In this document: positions 42,310-50,118 of the stretch, piece by piece
Layout of the letters: every line of letters starts with the position of its first letter
Numbering within the stretch: position 1 is the first letter of the stretch
Source of the DNA: Anaerococcus sp. AGMB09787
Lineage (GTDB): Bacteria > Bacillota > Clostridia > Tissierellales > Peptoniphilaceae
Direction of reading: 5' to 3'
NCBI RefSeq assembly: GCF_022808955.1
Contig: NZ_JAKZEY010000002.1
Coordinates: 1 to 58,535, forward strand
Length of the DNA stretch: 58,535 nt
The notes under the pieces: model-generated
The model's input: the letters and a program-made list of their open reading frames with translations, nothing else
What the model was told of the DNA's origin: nothing
The model's database searches: none
Made by a program: the position numbers and the translations under genes

Positions 42310-44613
42310 ATGACAGGTAAGAATGATAATAGAATTAGAAAAAAATCGAAGAACAAGAATCCGAATAGGACTAAAAGAGTAAAACCAAGGGAAAAATCTT
42401 TTGACATAAAAAAATTCTCGTTAATAATTATGGTACTACAGGTCTTTTTATTTGTCTTTATATTAAGTTCAAACACTGGCTTTATGGGAGATTTCTTGGA
42501 GCAGTTTTTTGGAAAGATCTTCGGAAAACTTTCCCTAGTTTTTCCAATTTTGATGTTTTTGACCTTCTTAACTTCCTTCAGGGGGACCTTCAAAAACCAC
42601 CTAAGTGAATTTGTCCTAGCCTATATAATCTACCTATTGGTCCTAGGACTCTTATCTAAAGACTATTTGAGAAATACCTTAAAGTGGACTATGGAATATT
42701 CAGCCTTGCAAAGTGTCAAGGGTGGCGGAGGATTGGGTGGACTAGTTGCCCACCTTGTAATAGGACTTATAGGAGAGCTAGGTCTATATCTAATGCTTAT
42801 AGTCTCTAGCCTTGCCCTAATAATCGACCTAAGTCCCCTTACCTACAGGGAATTTTTTGGGAAGGGTCGTGATATCTCCCTAATTGCCTACAATTCGTCC
42901 AAGGCCTTTATTGGAGATTCAAGGAATAAAATCAAAGCTAAAAATAAAGAAAGGCAAGAAAGAAAGGCGCCAGAAGAAAAATCGGAAGAAGAAGTAAAAA
43001 CAAATAAAAGAATAAGTCTAGAAGAAAAGCCAAGAAAAGATCTAGAAAGACCATCCAAAGCCCACAAGAAACCCCTCCAAACAATTAACTTAGATGACCT
43101 AGGAGAGGCCAAAGTCAACAATTATAGGTCTAGACAGGTAGAATTGGCAGACCTAAATGAAAGCTTTAAGAGGGAATTTGGCTCTTATACTTATCCTGCC
43201 ATTGACCTCCTTGATGCTAGAAATGATGTGTCAGATATTGACAATAACGAAATAAAAGAAAAGGCAAGAGCCATAGAGGAGACCCTAGATTCCTTCGCTA
43301 TAGAGGCGAGAGTTGTCCAAATTGATGTAGGTCCTACAGTAACCTGCTATGAACTAAAACCCCAAAGGGGAGTCAAGGTAAGTAAGATAGTTAACCTTGC
43401 TGATGACCTCTCCCTTGCCCTTGCGACAAGTGGGATAAGGATTCTTGCCCCAATTCCTGGTAAGAGCCACATAGGGATAGAAGTACCAAATGACAAGAAG
43501 GAAGTAGTAGGCCTAAAGGAAATTATATCTTCAGAAGCATTTGTGAAAAGCAAATACAAGATTCCCTTTGCCATGGGTAAGTCTATATCGGGTGATATTG
43601 TCGTATCAGCCATAGAAAAAATGCCTCACCTCCTGGTATCGGGAGCTACTGGATCTGGTAAGTCTGTCTGTATCAACACGATTATAATGTCAATTCTTTA
43701 CAAACATTCACCAGAAGATGTCAAACTCCTACTCATAGATCCAAAGGTAGTAGAACTTTCTATCTACAACGGAATTCCTCACCTTATAATGCCAGTAATA
43801 ACTGATCCCAAGAAGGCATCATCTTCATTATTTTGGGGGATAAGTGAGATGGAGAGAAGGTATAAGCTCTTTGAGAGCAACCATGTAAGAGATATAGTTG
43901 GCTACAAAAAAAACCTAGAATCTGATGATTCCATGGAAAAACTACCATATATAGTCATAATTATAGACGAGCTAGCTGACCTCATGATGACAGTAGGATC
44001 TGAAGTAGAAGACTATATAACAAGGCTTGCCCAAAAATCCAGGGCCTGTGGTATCCACCTAATTATAGCGACCCAAAGACCAACAGTAGATGTTATAACA
44101 GGAACCATTAAGGCAAACATACCTTCTAGGATTTCCTTTGCAGTAACTAGTCAAATAGACTCAAGGACTATACTAGATACCCAAGGAGCTGAGAAACTCC
44201 TCGGCAAGGGCGATATGCTCTACGCATCATCAGATTCAATGAGACCAGTTAGAATCCAAGGAGCCTTCGTATCAGATAATGAAGTAATCAGAGTAGTCGA
44301 AAGCCTCAAAGAAGATAACGAGATAGACTATAACCAAGAAGCTATTGATAAAATAGAAGAAGAAAGCCAAAAAATAGAGGCCAGCGAAGATGAAGATGAA
44401 TTGATAGATGAGGCTATCAAAATAATAATAAATGAAAAAACAGCTTCAGTATCCCTCCTCCAAAGAAAACTAAAAATTGGCTATGCCAGAGCTGGTAGGC
44501 TCATTGACCAACTAGAAACCAGGGGACTTGTTGGAGGATACGAGGGAAGTAAACCTAGGAAGGTTCTAGTAGATAAATCTTACTTACAAGGAGAAGAAAA
44601 TGAACTTAGCTAA
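42310..44613 (+). CDS. ftsK: DNA translocase FtsK/SpoIIIE
   Basis: This membrane-anchored motor pumps DNA at the division septum. An N-terminal basic stretch and about four membrane segments (about 38-170) precede a charged linker. The motor domain has the Walker A motif GATGSGKSVCINTI, Walker B IVIIIDELADLMM and ATQRPTVDVITG. The gamma winged-helix domain at the end has SVSLLQRKLKIGYARAGRLID. The 767-residue length is typical. It overlaps pgsA by 14 nt. Confidence 0.95.
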   Translation: MTGKNDNRIRKKSKNKNPNRTKRVKPREKSFDIKKFSLIIMVLQVFLFVFILSSNTGFMGDFLEQFFGKIFGKLSLVFPILMFLTFLTSFRGTFKNHLSEFVLAYIIYLLVLGLLSKDYLRNTLKWTMEYSALQSVKGGGGLGGLVAHLVIGLIGELGLYLMLIVSSLALIIDLSPLTYREFFGKGRDISLIAYNSSKAFIGDSRNKIKAKNKERQERKAPEEKSEEEVKTNKRISLEEKPRKDLERPSKAHKKPLQTINLDDLGEAKVNNYRSRQVELADLNESFKREFGSYTYPAIDLLDARNDVSDIDNNEIKEKARAIEETLDSFAIEARVVQIDVGPTVTCYELKPQRGVKVSKIVNLADDLSLALATSGIRILAPIPGKSHIGIEVPNDKKEVVGLKEIISSEAFVKSKYKIPFAMGKSISGDIVVSAIEKMPHLLVSGATGSGKSVCINTIIMSILYKHSPEDVKLLLIDPKVVELSIYNGIPHLIMPVITDPKKASSSLFWGISEMERRYKLFESNHVRDIVGYKKNLESDDSMEKLPYIVIIIDELADLMMTVGSEVEDYITRLAQKSRACGIHLIIATQRPTVDVITGTIKANIPSRISFAVTSQIDSRTILDTQGAEKLLGKGDMLYASSDSMRPVRIQGAFVSDNEVIRVVESLKEDNEIDYNQEAIDKIEEESQKIEASEDEDELIDEAIKIIINEKTASVSLLQRKLKIGYARAGRLIDQLETRGLVGGYEGSKPRKVLVDKSYLQGEENELS

Positions 44614-45130
44614 CAAAATAACAACATTAAGACTATTACTAATACCTGTTTTCGTTCTTGCCTACTACCTACTTGGTAGGGATATGAATATAGCAGCCAT
44701 AATATTTATAATAGCATCCTTGACAGATGCCCTAGACGGCTATATAGCAAGGTCTAGAAAGCTTGTCACCACCTTTGGCAAATTCGTAGACCCCTTGGTA
44801 GACAAGGTACTCACCATGGCAGCCTTCATAGTACTCGTAGAAGGAAAGATCCTACCTGCTTGGGCAGTAGTCATAATAATAGCAAGAGAGCTTATCATAA
44901 CAGGCTTTAGGACACTCGCAGCTGATGCAGGAAAAACAATAGCTGCATCCCCTTGGGGCAAGGCAAAAACCATAAGCCAAATGGTATCCCTAGTCATGCT
45001 CCTAGTCAATATACCAATCCTAAACAAAATAGGAATCTGGGTCTTCTATATAGCAGTAATCCTAACCCTAATATCTGGCCTTGACTACCTCTACAAAAAC
45101 AAAGAAGTCCTAGACTTAGAAAATATCTAA
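44600..45130 (+). CDS. pgsA: CDP-diacylglycerol-glycerol-3-phosphate 3-phosphatidyltransferase
   Basis: This membrane enzyme makes phosphatidylglycerol phosphate from the CdsA product. The CDP-alcohol transferase signature D-x2-DG-x2-AR-x8-G-x3-D-x3-D is seen in TDALDGYIARSR and FGKFVDPLVDKV. Four to five membrane segments occur in 176 residues. A perfect terminator follows, ending the rimP-pgsA run. Confidence 0.95.
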   Translation: MNLANKITTLRLLLIPVFVLAYYLLGRDMNIAAIIFIIASLTDALDGYIARSRKLVTTFGKFVDPLVDKVLTMAAFIVLVEGKILPAWAVVIIIARELIITGFRTLAADAGKTIAASPWGKAKTISQMVSLVMLLVNIPILNKIGIWVFYIAVILTLISGLDYLYKNKEVLDLENI

Positions 45131-45134
45131 CACT

Positions 45135-45164
45135 TAGCCTTGCCATTATGGCAAGGCTATTTTA
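45135..45164 (+). terminator. Terminator after pgsA
   Basis: TAGCCTTGCC and GGCAAGGCTA make a perfect 10-bp stem with an ATTAT loop, followed by TTTTAG. Confidence 0.9.
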
Positions 45165-45182
45165 GTTAATTTATAATAACAT

Positions 45183-45211
45183 TTGCAAATAAAAAATATT
45201 TGTGTTATAAT
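45183..45211 (+). promoter_or_regulatory. Probable promoter/operator of the bacteriocin cluster
   Basis: TTGCAA (45183-45188) and TATAAT (45206-45211) are 17 bp apart. The promoter is nested in an interrupted inverted repeat: ATAACA, then CAAATA, then TATTTGTGTTAT, which could be an operator. The start would be about 260 nt before the bacteriocin gene. Confidence 0.55.
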
Positions 45212-45480
45212 ATTAGTATAATAATATATATATTAAAAAGCTTATAATCTGAAAGGAAGAAATTCCAAAATTATGTAGAAAGTAGAAGTATTATAGCTGT
45301 TTGTAATGATACAGCTATGCGTGTTGTTAGAAGCTTTAGTAAAGATAAAAGAGGTTTTTGGAGATGAAAAGTATTAATCCAAGCAGATATAAAAATGGCG
45401 ACAATTAAAATTTATGGAATTTAAATTTATTCTAAACTAAGACCAGATTTTATGTAAATAGTAAATTAAGGAGATATATA
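45212..45480 (+). other. Long leader upstream of the bacteriocin gene
   Basis: These 269 bases contain no complete gene. A short open stretch (45270-45364) reads YVESRSIIAVCNDTAM and continues to SFSKDKRGFW before TGA; I cannot assign it, and it lacks a ribosome site. An AAGGAG site (45469-45474) precedes the bacteriocin ATG. Confidence 0.4.
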
Positions 45481-45780
45481 ATGAAAAATAAAATAAAAAG
45501 AAAACTTTTAACAATTACTGCAATGATTATGATGTTAGCTTCTGCTCCTGGAATTGTACATGCGACATCCGAAACTGTTTATTTTAACGGGGATCCTGTT
45601 AACTGGGATCATGGAAGAAAGTGGGGAGTGACTAGTTATTCACAGGTCCAAACACATATTTATGAACACTCAGCAACTGCAAATAGTACATTTTCGGGTT
45701 GGAAAAATCCAGGAGTAACAGCTTATGCTTCACAATTTGTGGGCACATCTAGAGCAACAGCTTACTGGGATTGTAGATAA
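45481..45780 (+). CDS. Lactococcin 972-family bacteriocin precursor
   Basis: This 99-residue secreted peptide has a Sec signal (KIKRKLLTITAMIMML..., probable cleavage after VHA at about residue 28), leaving a mature chain of about 71 residues. The mature part has the lactococcin 972 pattern: an N-terminal VYFNGDPVNWDHG like the family's G-x-W-x-x-G, central HIYEHSATA (family HSATV-like) and an aromatic-rich end, here AYWDCR. Lactococcin 972 binds lipid II and blocks septum formation. The membrane protein and ABC ATPase genes directly downstream are the family's standard partners. The terminal Cys is unusual. Confidence 0.82.
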   Translation: MKNKIKRKLLTITAMIMMLASAPGIVHATSETVYFNGDPVNWDHGRKWGVTSYSQVQTHIYEHSATANSTFSGWKNPGVTAYASQFVGTSRATAYWDCR

Positions 45781-45792
45781 TAAATAACTTTG

Positions 45793-45827
45793 GGAGGCTA
45801 AAGAAATCTATGGAATCTTTAGCCTTC
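45793..45827 (+). promoter_or_regulatory. Intercistronic hairpin between bacteriocin and membrane-protein genes
   Basis: GGCTAAAGA (45796-45804) and TCTTTAGCC (45816-45824) form a perfect 9-bp stem, extendable on both sides, without a T-run. It could protect the 3' end of the bacteriocin mRNA or lower read-through to the downstream genes. Confidence 0.6.
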
Positions 45828-45846
45828 CACTATATTTGGAGGTACC

Positions 45847-48060
45847 ATGAAAAATATTTTTAATGGTAAGATATTAAAATATGTAACTTGTCTTATGATA
45901 ATTGTACAGGGTATTTTATTTTCGTTACTTGCAACTTTTTATATGGGGGAATCTTATTTTAACAAGCTAAGAATATATCCAAACTCTGCTTTATACATAG
46001 AATTAAAGACTATACCTGAAGAAAATACAGAAATGACCTATAGGTTTTTAGATGACTATGCCCGACAAAACGGTTTGTTTTACATAAGGAAAGATTTACT
46101 CATAGATGATATGGGTGCAACCATCGGTATTACATTAAGTGTTGATGGGGATATAGAAAGTAATAGGGATGAATTAAATCTAGACTTTCTAGGTGAAAAT
46201 ATCATTAGTACGAGTAAATTAGATAAGCTTTTAACATCTGATAATGACGATGCAACTCTAGGTCTAGGAAAAAGCTCATTAAATAGTATAGGTGATATTC
46301 CTAGCTTTATAATGGGAAATAGAGTTCTTGTTAAAAAATTAGAAACTACTGTAAAGGAAACTAAAACTATTAATGGACAATACAAGATTGTAGGCTTAAA
46401 TAAAGATAAAGAAGCTGAGTTTTTGGAAGGATTAAGCCAAGTAAGTGGGGTAGATAGTTCGGTATTTTTTGATGGCAAATCTGGATATATCATAGATCAT
46501 GGATTTGGAGAAATGGTTATAGTTGGTACTTTTGTTTTTAGTTCTTTAGTTTTATTAGCTTTACTTATAGTAATAACTATCAAAAACTTACCGAATCTAG
46601 GCAAGCTAATTTTACAAGGATGGTCTAGGAAACATTTTGCTTTGAAATTATATCAACCTTTCCTATATACTGCATTATTTTCAGTTCCTTTATTTATAGG
46701 CTACGGGATAATTTTTACAGGGTTTACTTTTAAATCACTTATTTTCTTTTCCTTGATGGTAGGATTAGGATTAATTAATTTCTTGATTATTGGGATATTG
46801 TTGTTAATATCATCTTTTTTTATCTTTTTAATTTCTCCTATAAATGCCATAAGAGAAAGAATGCCAAGGAAAAAATATATGGGAATAGCTGTTTTTGTAT
46901 ATTGCCTTTTTAATGTTTGTTTAATTGCTATATGCTCCTATATTGATGGCCCTTCCAGAGAAGTTGAGAAAAATATAGAAATTAAACAAAGTTGGGACAG
47001 GGTTTCTGACTATAAAATTCTTAAAGATATTTCTGTAGGCAATGATCAAGCAAGCTTTAATAGGCAGTCTAAAGAATTTTTTAGAGATTTTTATAATTGG
47101 TATAGGTCAATTGCTGATAAGGATGGAGTCTACATAGCTAATACTGCTTTTACCTCCAAGGATGATTTAGAAAACTATAAGGCTAACCATGTGTATGAAA
47201 TTGTGCCTAATGAAGAGTTTTGGCTACTTACAGCTTCTCCTAATTATTTAAATAAAATAGGTATAAGTATGGACGATTCACTAGTTGAAGATGCTAAAGA
47301 GGGCCTTAGAACTTACTTAATTCCTGATAATAAGTCTGACGAAGAAATTGCTTTATTAAAAGAAATGTTAATTGAGCAAGATACCAAAAGTATTAGACCA
47401 GATGATATCGACACTACCTTCAATGATAATAAGGAATTTAATTTTGTAAAATATGCTTACGATGATGACATATTCTCTTACAGTACAGATTCATCAAAGG
47501 ATCTGATGATTAAAAATCCTATTATACTAGTACTTACACCTGAGAACATGATATATAGAGAGTCGGAAAGTTTGTCTGCTATAGGGTTAGAAAATTCCTT
47601 CATCAAACTTGGTGATAAGGCTGATAAATACTTAGACCCATCTTACCTTACCAAGTTTAATTTGGGTGATAATAATATAGAATTTGCTACAATTAGTTTA
47701 TTTGTTGATGGTATTGTGAGAAATTTATGGGTAACTATAAAAATTTTTTTAGGATTTTTACTTTCCCTTACTTTTATAGTTATCATACTCTTGATAACTA
47801 TAGTAACTATTTTTCAAGACGCTTATAAGGAGAGGATATCCGTTAAGAAATTCTTAGGTTATAGTAACTTCCATATATATAAAATACCTATCCTACTAGT
47901 GATTTTTGTCATAACTATTGATATTGCTAGTGTTATAATACTTAGATCTAAGGTAGGCATACTTTTAATGACGATAATTGCTCTTGCCCAAGTAATCATT
48001 TTTTATATGGCTATGGTAAGTAATCAAATGAAAAAATTAAATTTATTTTTGAAAGCTTAG
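45847..48060 (+). CDS. Bacteriocin-associated integral membrane protein (lactococcin 972 cluster)
   Basis: The 737-residue protein has a first membrane segment at about 12-34, a large extracellular-type domain, a central group of segments (about 218-243, 262-330 and 342-365), a second soluble domain, and three final segments (about 630-655, 675-695, 700-722). This FtsX/MacB-like layout matches the membrane protein that accompanies lactococcin 972 bacteriocins (bacteriocin-associated integral membrane family). It probably acts with the following ATPase in self-immunity or export. GGAGG precedes the ATG. The next gene starts 8 nt later. Confidence 0.8.
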   Translation: MKNIFNGKILKYVTCLMIIVQGILFSLLATFYMGESYFNKLRIYPNSALYIELKTIPEENTEMTYRFLDDYARQNGLFYIRKDLLIDDMGATIGITLSVDGDIESNRDELNLDFLGENIISTSKLDKLLTSDNDDATLGLGKSSLNSIGDIPSFIMGNRVLVKKLETTVKETKTINGQYKIVGLNKDKEAEFLEGLSQVSGVDSSVFFDGKSGYIIDHGFGEMVIVGTFVFSSLVLLALLIVITIKNLPNLGKLILQGWSRKHFALKLYQPFLYTALFSVPLFIGYGIIFTGFTFKSLIFFSLMVGLGLINFLIIGILLLISSFFIFLISPINAIRERMPRKKYMGIAVFVYCLFNVCLIAICSYIDGPSREVEKNIEIKQSWDRVSDYKILKDISVGNDQASFNRQSKEFFRDFYNWYRSIADKDGVYIANTAFTSKDDLENYKANHVYEIVPNEEFWLLTASPNYLNKIGISMDDSLVEDAKEGLRTYLIPDNKSDEEIALLKEMLIEQDTKSIRPDDIDTTFNDNKEFNFVKYAYDDDIFSYSTDSSKDLMIKNPIILVLTPENMIYRESESLSAIGLENSFIKLGDKADKYLDPSYLTKFNLGDNNIEFATISLFVDGIVRNLWVTIKIFLGFLLSLTFIVIILLITIVTIFQDAYKERISVKKFLGYSNFHIYKIPILLVIFVITIDIASVIILRSKVGILLMTIIALAQVIIFYMAMVSNQMKKLNLFLKA

Positions 48061-48068
48061 GAGGATAT

Positions 48069-48749
48069 ATGAATATATTGGAATTAGAAAATGTTAGTAA
48101 GAGCTATGATGGAATAAAAGTTATAGACAATCTTAGCCTATCTTTCCCAGGAAAATCTATTGTTGCGATCACAGGAAAGTCTGGTTCGGGAAAAAGTACT
48201 CTACTAAATATGATAGGCCTACTTGAAGAAATTGATAGTGGAGTAATAAAAATAAAGGGTCAAAACCTGCCAAAAATAAATAGTAGGTTAGCCACAAAGT
48301 TGAGAAGAAATGTAATCAATTATTTATTTCAATCATTTGCTTTAATAAGTGATATAAATGTAAGTGACAATCTATTAATTGCTATGGAATTTATGGACCT
48401 ATCCAAAGATGAAAAGATGAAAATTATAGATAGGACCCTTGAGGAACTGGATATATTAAAATTAAAAAACAGAAAGGTAAATACCTTATCCGGTGGAGAA
48501 CAACAAAGGGTTGCTATAGCTAGGTGTATACTAAAACCCGGTGATCTGGTTCTAGCAGATGAACCAACAGGATCTCTAGACCCTCTTATGGCCCAAAAAG
48601 TATTTCGATTAATTCAAAATCTTAGAGATAAATATGGGAAAACTGTAATTATGGTTACCCACGATATGACCTTGGCAAATATGGCAGATCAGATTATAAG
48701 TCTTGATAAGGAATTAGAAATAAAAATAGATAGGGAAATGATTAATTAA
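48069..48749 (+). CDS. ABC transporter ATPase of the lactococcin 972 cluster
   Basis: This 226-residue MacB/LolD-type ATPase has Walker A GKSGSGKST (about 36-44), the signature LSGGEQQRVAIAR, Walker B LVLADEPTG and the H-loop VTHD. It is the usual third gene of lactococcin 972 loci and should energise the 737-residue membrane protein. It is preceded by AGGAGG and followed by a terminator that closes the cassette. Confidence 0.88.
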   Translation: MNILELENVSKSYDGIKVIDNLSLSFPGKSIVAITGKSGSGKSTLLNMIGLLEEIDSGVIKIKGQNLPKINSRLATKLRRNVINYLFQSFALISDINVSDNLLIAMEFMDLSKDEKMKIIDRTLEELDILKLKNRKVNTLSGGEQQRVAIARCILKPGDLVLADEPTGSLDPLMAQKVFRLIQNLRDKYGKTVIMVTHDMTLANMADQIISLDKELEIKIDREMIN

Positions 48750-48758
48750 ATTATCGAC

Positions 48759-48788
48759 AGCCTTACTCGATTTGAGTGAGGTTTTTTA
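48759..48788 (+). terminator. Terminator of the bacteriocin cassette
   Basis: CCTTACTC-GATTT-GAGTGAGG forms an 8-bp stem followed by TTTTTT. Confidence 0.85.
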
Positions 48789-48893
48789 AATGTAAAAAAT
48801 TTAATTAAGTTACAATAAATCTCTAATTGTTATTATAAAGATCGCATTCCATAAAAGACCTCGGCAGATAATTTATTTAAAGTAAAGTTTTAT

Positions 48894-48998
48894 GTAAGGG
48901 AGATCCTCAAGGATTTAAATAAGATAGGGAATACTATCATAGTCGTAACCCATGATGCCTATACTGCTGATATGTGCCAGAGAAGGGTCACTTTGTGA
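48894..48998 (+). pseudogene. C-terminal remnant of a second ABC transporter ATPase
   Basis: The open stretch reads REILKDLNKIGNTIIVVTHD and then AYTADMCQRRVTL before TGA. This is the D-loop to H-loop end of a LolD/MacB-type ATPase. No Walker A, signature or start codon remains. It is more like MacB-class ATPases than a copy of the neighbouring gene, and may be a leftover of another exporter. The rest of the 48790-49083 gap shows nothing else. Confidence 0.65.
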
Positions 48999-49083
48999 TT
49001 TATCATTGCCAATGTCCCTTTAATAAATCCCGAAAAACTATATAGTAATATTAGGAAAATATCTAATATTCTAAGGAGATAAA

Positions 49084-50118
49084 ATGGACAGTGATAAACA
49101 AAAAGCTCTCGATCAGGCTTTTAAAAACATCGAGAAAAAATATGGTAAGGGAGCTATAATGAAGATGGGCGAAGCTCCTAAAGTTTCAATCGAAGCTATA
49201 CCTACTGGAGCTATTAACCTGGATGTGGCTCTTGGTATAGGAGGTCTACCAAGGGGTAGGGTTGTAGAAATCTTTGGACCTGAATCATCTGGTAAGACCA
49301 CCCTTGCCCTTCATATAGTTGCAGAAGATCAAAAATTAGGCCATACAGCAGCCTTTATAGATGCTGAGCATGCCTTAGATGCAGAATATGCCCGTAACCT
49401 AGGAGTTGATATAGATAACCTCATCCTATCCCAACCAGATACAGGGGAACAAGGACTTGACATATCAGAATCCCTAGTAAGGAGTGGGGCAGTTGATCTA
49501 ATTATAATAGACTCAGTAGCAGCCCTAGTGCCTCGTGCCGAAATCGAAGGAGAGATGGGAGATAGCCACGTGGGTCTCCAAGCAAGACTAATGAGTCAGG
49601 CCCTAAGACGACTCACAGGAGTTATATCTAAGTCAAACACTACAGTTGTCTTTATTAACCAACTTAGGGAGAAGGTAGGGGTAATGTTTGGTTCTCCTGA
49701 GACAACACCAGGTGGACGTGCCCTCAAGTTCTATTCATCAGTAAGACTTGATATCAGAAGGATAAAGACAATCACCCAAGGAGAAGATTCAATAGGATCA
49801 AGGACTAGGGTCAAGATTGTAAAGAACAAGGTAGCACCACCCTTCAAGGTTGTTGAATTTGACATAATGTATGGTAAGGGAATTTCTAAATCAGGTACTC
49901 TCCTAGATACAGCAGTTGATGAAGACATAGTAGAAAAGGCTGGGTCATGGTTCTCCTATAAGGGCGAAAAACTCGGCCAAGGTAGGGAAAATGTAAAACA
50001 ATACCTAGAAGATAATCCAGAAATAATGGCCCAAGTTGAAGAAGAAGTTCGTGCCAAGTTCGAAATCAAAGAAGGCGATGAGGGCGAGTCTAAAGAAAAT
50101 ATAGAAAGTGAAGAATAA
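49084..50118 (+). CDS. recA: Recombinase RecA
   Basis: RecA drives homologous recombination and SOS induction. Walker [12 protein letters not shown] (about residues 66-76), Walker [11 protein letters not shown], loop regions [14 protein letters not shown] and the KVAPPFK motif are present. The 344 residues include a typical acidic C-terminal tail. AAGGAG lies before the ATG. I found no clear Gram-positive LexA box in the upstream region. A GC-rich terminator follows. Confidence 0.98.

Follow-up and report, generated by a model that had tools for sequence, protein, structure and literature searches.

Peptides of the lactococcin 972 type are described as binding lipid II and stopping septum formation in PMC11796350; related literature includes PMC4055356, PMC7038271 and PMC9964109. 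According to PMC11796350, the family fold is a beta-sandwich, the peptides are thought to be secreted by the Sec pathway, and the function of the accompanying pump genes has been verified in no locus. The streptococcin B operon (scbABC) of Streptococcus pneumoniae is accepted there as lactococcin 972-like; it is controlled by competence, and strains exist that carry the pump genes without the bacteriocin gene (PMC11796350). Here we describe a locus in Anaerococcus sp. AGMB09787 that resembles scbABC, by description only, and the lactococcin 972 operon by sequence. It lies in a stretch of 58,535 nucleotides (NZ_JAKZEY010000002.1, positions 1 to 58,535), which we call the window. We class it as a lactococcin 972-type cassette whose peptide falls outside the family models tried.

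Three open reading frames (ORFs) of 99, 737 and 226 amino acids are present on the + strand at 45481-45780, 45847-48060 and 48069-48749, in the place and order given by an earlier reading made from the letters alone (the sequence-only reading). The first encodes a bacteriocin-like precursor. Read by eye, its N-terminus begins with basic residues that lead into a hydrophobic core and then VHA followed by TSETVYF; this is consistent with a Sec-type signal at residues 1-28 and a predicted mature protein of ∼71 residues that ends in WDCR. The second encodes a membrane protein with ∼7-8 hydrophobic spans, and the third an ATP-binding cassette (ABC) ATPase whose best model is TIGR03608. A secreted precursor followed by a large membrane protein and an ATPase on a single strand is the plan of lactococcin 972-type loci. 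The host genome (2.0 Mb, 98% complete) belongs to Anaerococcus, a human-associated genus, in agreement with the anaerobic coccus that had been proposed. The cassette is located between two genes that we take, from their sequences, to be pgsA (left, upstream) and recA (right, downstream). The G+C content of 45160-48759 is 0.30, compared with a contig mean of 0.37, and none of 275 segments of 3.6 kb has a lower value.

The lactococcin 972 operon of pBL1 (L012, NC_004955) shares with this locus the order of peptide, membrane protein and ATPase genes, a Sec-type leader as judged from sequence, a homologous membrane protein with a similar spread of spans, and a homologous ATPase. The window cassette differs in that its peptide is outside the family models, has a C-terminal cysteine, and is encoded at a chromosomal pgsA-recA site; its membrane protein is also longer (737 compared with 648 amino acids). 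We consider it probable that the three genes are a bacteriocin cassette of the lactococcin 972 type, acquired by horizontal transfer, and that the ABC pair provides producer immunity.

The membrane protein and the ATPase are homologous to the partners of lactococcin 972. A profile of seven window-type membrane proteins matched five canonical proteins with a probability of 99.67% over 623 columns, with 15% identity and a score of 207, whereas the best of 20 column permutations scored 21 and the reversed control 26. The match to five proteins of an intermediate type had a probability of 97.34%, with a score of 99 and control values of 27 (permuted) and 20 (reversed). Hydrophobic spans are distributed alike in these sets: one N-terminal span and then a long stretch, followed by about four spans, another long stretch, and two or three final spans. 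By the hydrophobicity measure used, the first span is missing from one of the five proteins of the intermediate type.

The ATPase scores best with TIGR03608, at 232.9 bits compared with 178.6 for the next model (54 bits apart). A tree was computed from 40 rows, comprising 22 cassette ATPases (pBL1 and Streptococcus salivarius included) and 18 other ABC proteins of the window genome, G019 and G034. No row was obtained from outgroup loci L107 and L109, and L008 was excluded because its ATPase frame is interrupted. A branch with support of 98/91 separates all 22 cassette rows from the other 18, and the window ATPase belongs to a subgroup of 10 rows (support 100/99). The profile match and the tree argue that the partner genes belong with those of lactococcin 972 rather than with ATPases of the LolD/MacB type from the same genomes, and the three-gene cassette that the sequence-only reading had proposed is supported to this extent. 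A grouping with LolD-like exporters, which that reading had named as speaking against it, was not observed.

The curated models for the partners give a divided answer. TIGR03608 is the best model for the window ATPase, but its score remains below the cut-off of 254.85, and the window membrane protein has no match to TIGR01654 or another NCBIfam model, either whole or as two fragments. Both of these shortfalls count against the assignment. The only Pfam match of the membrane protein is to DUF1430, below threshold (25.5 compared with 28.2), and no FtsX domain (PF02687) is found in it; two relatives have sub-threshold PF02687 matches (18.8 and 22.3, threshold 25.5). The sister species G027 encodes a 97% identical protein, which scores 72.6 bits with TIGR01654 against a cut-off of 189.35. 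Other relatives are also under that value: Staphylococcus pseudintermedius 85.7, Macrococcus 85.0, G026 59.1, and a Clostridiaceae plasmid 41.2. So is the G019 protein (133.2), which is encoded beside a canonical peptide.

The peptide is probably a distant relative of lactococcin 972, related through intermediates and outside the family as now defined. The sequence-only reading described a secreted precursor with the tryptophan/histidine pattern of the family. The Sec-type signal and tryptophan, histidine and glycine positions resembling those of lactococcin 972 are indeed present, but the overall likeness is weak. To set against this relationship, the best-scoring NCBIfam model for the peptide, TIGR01653, reaches only 17.5 bits, below the curated 32.1. 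Moreover, PF09683 at E ≤ 1 gives no match for the peptides of the window and of L007, L009, L010 and L015, which we call group A, whereas five of five positive controls pass (lactococcin 972, S. salivarius, G019, G034 and G526). Thus, neither TIGR01653 at its cut-off nor PF09683 recovers the peptide, an outcome that forms half of what the earlier reading had named as speaking against its proposal. In whole-genome scans with TIGR01653, the window genome is not picked up at E ≤ 0.01, and even at E ≤ 1 those of the G026-type and S. pseudintermedius relatives are missed. Matches of 17-18 bits also occur elsewhere in three of 299 genomes, two of them in unrelated long proteins and one in a secreted protein of unassigned kind. 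AlphaFold returned pLDDT values (its confidence measure) of 41.7 for the peptide alone and 41.3 with a four-row alignment, too low for a usable model, so the structure prediction suggested for the mature peptide yielded none. A sequence search of solved structures found no related chain, the one match at E 0.73 being taken as chance. Sub-threshold TIGR01653 matches at L016-L018 were inspected and set aside.

Both curated family tests failed, and the connection between the peptide and lactococcin 972 consists of a weak profile link through intermediates, together with gene context. The profile link was examined by permuting columns, using the mature regions of five group-A peptides with the truncated G075 peptide left out. 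Against six canonical peptides, 178 of 400 permutations were equally good, which is a further point against the relationship. Against five intermediate Anaerococcus peptides none of 400 was, over 15 columns that center on SGW..P...A.AS, and when the canonical and intermediate sets were used jointly, four of 400 permutations matched or beat the real profile. One of the intermediate peptides passes PF09683 (28.4 compared with 22). Profile comparisons that retained the signal peptides (54% in one; in another, 43% for the intermediate set, 24% for the canonical set and 93% for the two jointly) were not used, because one of these had aligned on the leader alone.

A different explanation is that a nonhomologous secreted protein, directed at another target, has taken over an immunity pair of the lactococcin 972 type. 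The missing PF09683 match, the sub-threshold TIGR01653 score and the poor performance against canonical peptides all speak for it, and a weak match to PF21230 (18.4 bits, cut-off 27) is of similar strength to the TIGR01653 match. PF21230 is the Nakanori-like family, with an actinoporin-like fold. We regard this explanation as unlikely, given the match to the intermediate Anaerococcus peptides, even though it spans 15 columns. Furthermore, TIGR01653, although sub-threshold, is the top NCBIfam family in four of the five group-A peptides scanned; three relatives score 16.6-18.3 bits, and the S. pseudintermedius peptide (L015) has no match.

The lone cysteine that had been noted in the WDCR end is real. 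Residue 98 is the only cysteine of the window precursor, and a penultimate cysteine is found in five of six subgroup peptides (window, G027, Macrococcus, S. pseudintermedius and G075), whereas the lactococcin 972 precursor has none. The G026 peptide has alanine in its place and ends in WDAR. The cysteine is a mark of the subgroup that is not needed in all of its members. It had also been suggested that this residue could allow dimer formation. Lactococcin 972 is described as homodimeric in PMC4289311, and since it has no cysteine, the residue is not needed for a dimer.

If the preferred reading of a lactococcin 972-type cassette with an immunity pair is correct, the precursor would be exported by Sec, the signal removed, and a mature protein of ∼71 residues left. 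This protein would act outside the cell and attack the wall of susceptible neighbors, which the sequence-only reading took to be probably related cocci; most likely it would bind lipid II and so block formation of the septum. Together, the membrane protein and the ATPase would form a MacB/FtsX-like pair that acts at the surface to protect the producer and does not serve as an exporter. The membrane protein has two large stretches between spans, at about residues 35-218 and 369-625, which we take to be extracytoplasmic. The arrangement of spans, together with lipid II as the presumed target, suggests that protection might resemble the target protection proposed for BceAB.

The distribution of the pump genes favors immunity over export. 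A window-type membrane protein is found in nine of 130 genomes of the family (E ≤ 1e-30). A whole peptide gene accompanies it in the window, G026 and G027, and a truncated one in G075. In the other five genomes (G016, G021, G030, G031 and G034), no peptide is present in the 400 bases upstream on the same strand. Because five related membrane-ATPase pairs are without a peptide upstream, immunity is the favored role. In two close pairs of such pump genes the ratios of nonsynonymous to synonymous divergence (dN/dS) are 0.11 and 0.13. One result tells against this argument: the five peptide-less pairs form a single clade of the ATPase tree and may therefore reflect a single loss, or another role. 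Three of them (L095, L099 and L100, in G030, G031 and G016) directly follow a large polymerase-like gene, which we take to be polC, so that this site is a recurrent one. Such pairs make the role of the pump, in immunity or in export, directly testable.

The view that the ABC pair is the dedicated exporter of the peptide, with immunity encoded elsewhere, would agree with the linkage of the genes and with the TIGR03608 name, "putative bacteriocin export." This arrangement seems rather improbable to us, because the peptide bears a Sec-type signal in its sequence and because pump pairs occur without a peptide upstream in five of nine genomes. In addition, streptococcin B leaves the cell whether or not ComAB is present, a result that its authors read as support for Sec (PMC11796350).

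The cassette genes are not chance ORFs, because relatives of the peptide at 96% and 56-57% identity are present in two Anaerococcus metagenome-assembled genomes and because the membrane protein and the peptide have dN/dS values of 0.20 and 0.27, respectively, relative to G027. In the ATPase of the same pair, dN (0.014) exceeds dS (0.008) over 181 codons with seven codon differences, and therefore this gene gives no sign of constraint between window and G027. That is a point against the preferred reading. The intact frames, the low dS and the two dN/dS ratios also bear on whether the locus is an antibacterial weapon at all. A streptococcin B homolog of Streptococcus iniae is reported to alter immune responses (PMC11796350), and the product could instead have another role at the surface, for example in interacting with an animal host. 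However, such a role does not readily account for these features or for the linked pump pair of the lactococcin 972 kind, and we consider it very unlikely.

The site of the cassette may have had an earlier occupant. Downstream from the cassette, at 48879-48995 on the + strand, is a relic of 39 residues that corresponds to the C-terminal end of an ATPase from another lactococcin 972 lineage, that of G019 (23 of 37 residues identical). Its score against the G019 ATPase is 130, compared with a maximum of 45 in 300 shuffles and 59 against the window's own ATPase. When the 31 genomes of the genus were searched with the relic, the best gene seen whole was again the G019 ATPase (61%, E 1e-12). One stretch in G027, also ahead of recA, matches better (71%), and its contig ends there. 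The most economical interpretation is that this site was once taken by a cassette from a different lineage, of which only the last codons survive.

All 31 genomes carry pgsA, and of the 30 pgsA loci returned, 27 have recA within ∼520 bases. A cassette occupies the site at two of these loci, in the window and in G019; the G027 contig ends 224 bases after pgsA. The G019 cassette (L054) has the same pgsA-recA site and three-gene plan, but it differs in having a canonical peptide (TIGR01653 54.4, PF09683 50 bits) and an ATPase (TIGR03608 273.1) that are over the cut-offs, and this ATPase is of the type of the window's relic, not of its whole gene.

Comparison with G027 suggests that the cassette was recently exchanged or transferred between the two lineages, since its dS values are below those of all 12 flanking genes compared. 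These values are 0.069 for the membrane protein, 0.008 for the ATPase and 0.065 for the peptide, whereas the flanking genes range from 0.118 to 0.387 with a median of 0.26. The pgsA gene was outside the 12-gene set under a rule against overlapping ORFs, and its dS, computed separately, is 0.459. Unusual protein constraint does not explain the low cassette values, because cassette dN (0.014-0.017) lies within the range of the 12 genes (0.006-0.064). From the leader into the ATPase, window and G027 are 97.5% identical over 3458 bases, whereas the relic and spacer are 82% identical over 203. The history would include both transfer and replacement of the older cassette. On a second G027 contig, the leader adjoins the end of a transposase-like frame, and an insertion sequence may have entered by the leader in some cells.

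A bolder proposal has two parts: that the pgsA-recA junction is a site where unlike lactococcin 972 cassettes are exchanged between species, and that the window lineage carries a new toxin domain (with a C-terminal cysteine and unrecognized by the Pfam and NCBIfam models tried) on a conserved lactococcin 972 immunity pair, common to Macrococcus plasmids and Staphylococcus. We offer this combination tentatively, as the less likely case.

The peptide is narrowly distributed in the genomes searched. At E ≤ 0.01, five of 130 family genomes matched, the window's own included. The G068 match (L005) has two internal stops and overlies a long frame on the opposite strand, and it was rejected as chance. 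The G075 peptide is a truncated copy with a broken membrane gene. A four-sequence peptide profile found nothing beyond the window itself in 398 genomes sampled from the phylum, and two scans of viral contigs gave no relatives. A scan of genome contigs returned three loci, and group-A peptides are encoded on two Macrococcus-type plasmids of equal size. In Macrococcoides caseolyticum plasmid p19Msa1047-4 (L007, NZ_CP080018.1), the subgroup peptide ends in YWNCR and the gene order is the same; the differences are a mobilizable plasmid, a membrane partner that is 34% identical, and a peptide gene (L007:882-1178) that is unlisted in the PLSDB gene table. S. pseudintermedius LMG 22219 carries a group-A peptide without a signal sequence. 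The window and these relatives add to the lactococcin 972 type a subgroup whose peptide is named by neither Pfam nor NCBIfam. In the partly available literature on lactococcin 972, Anaerococcus is named under another peptide class; this coverage is partial, and we do not claim that the genus or the Macrococcus and staphylococcal loci are undescribed.

Lactococcin 972-type cassettes are common in Anaerococcus, with recognized ones present and one of them at the window's site. TIGR01654 matches (E ≤ 1e-5) occur in 14 of 31 genus genomes (23 matches, with three genomes over the cut-off), and the window's membrane protein is not among them. Twenty-two matches were examined (19 loci plus those in L009, L010 and L054, with L088 left out), and a lactococcin-like peptide ORF is located just upstream in 11. 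The G026 locus has a helix-turn-helix protein upstream of its peptide (L010:1241-2152; HTH_3 35.0 bits, TPR below cut-off), and similar-looking frames, judged by eye, precede the peptide in four intermediate-type cassettes (L082, L083, L084 and L087). Such proteins would fit control by a peptide pheromone; no frame of this kind was seen before the peptide at the window cassette. In G075, contig C45 (L021, ∼1489-1890, - strand) encodes a second lactococcin-like peptide, which has two cysteines, adjoins a membrane protein frame, and scores 25.7 bits with TIGR01653, below cut-off.

The cassette is bordered by two predicted terminator hairpins on the + strand, each with an 11-pair stem. One follows pgsA at the left edge (45135-45159) and has a T-run, and the other is at the right edge (48759-48783). 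Their stems are the longest among terminator-like hairpins within 44000-50000. A promoter-like site at 45181-45211 (+ strand), identified by consensus match, has the palindrome ATTTGCAAAT over its -35 element and an extended -10 TATAAT; the match at 45183-45211 reads TTGCAA-17-TATAAT, with TG preceding the -10. These sites are at the places expected from the two strong terminators and one promoter claimed in the sequence-only reading, but their numbers are not above chance: four terminator-like sites compared with 2.8 ± 1.8 in shuffles, and 25 promoter-like matches compared with 26.6 ± 5.6. Since neither count exceeds the shuffles, it is position rather than number that backs these assignments.

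The palindrome at 45181-45190 occurs once in the window (0.13 expected; present in 12 of 100 shuffles), and TTTGCAAA and the -10 region are kept in G027. Among 13 peptide genes checked, four have TTTGCAAA within 450 bases upstream (window, G027, G019 and G030), and the G019 cassette, also at a pgsA-recA site, has TTTGCAAAT 89 bases ahead of its peptide. We treat the promoter palindrome as a lead only. A leader of ∼270 bases (45212-45480, + strand) follows. The region 45181-45480 is 97% identical to that of the sister species and has one full copy in the window genome, so the leader was rejected as a repeated element. No Rfam match was found in 44600-49100 at E ≤ 0.5. Within the leader, at ∼45245-45363 in the frame of 45161, is an open stretch that has no ordinary start codon close to where it begins; it ends in SFSKDKRGFWR and is largely kept in G027.

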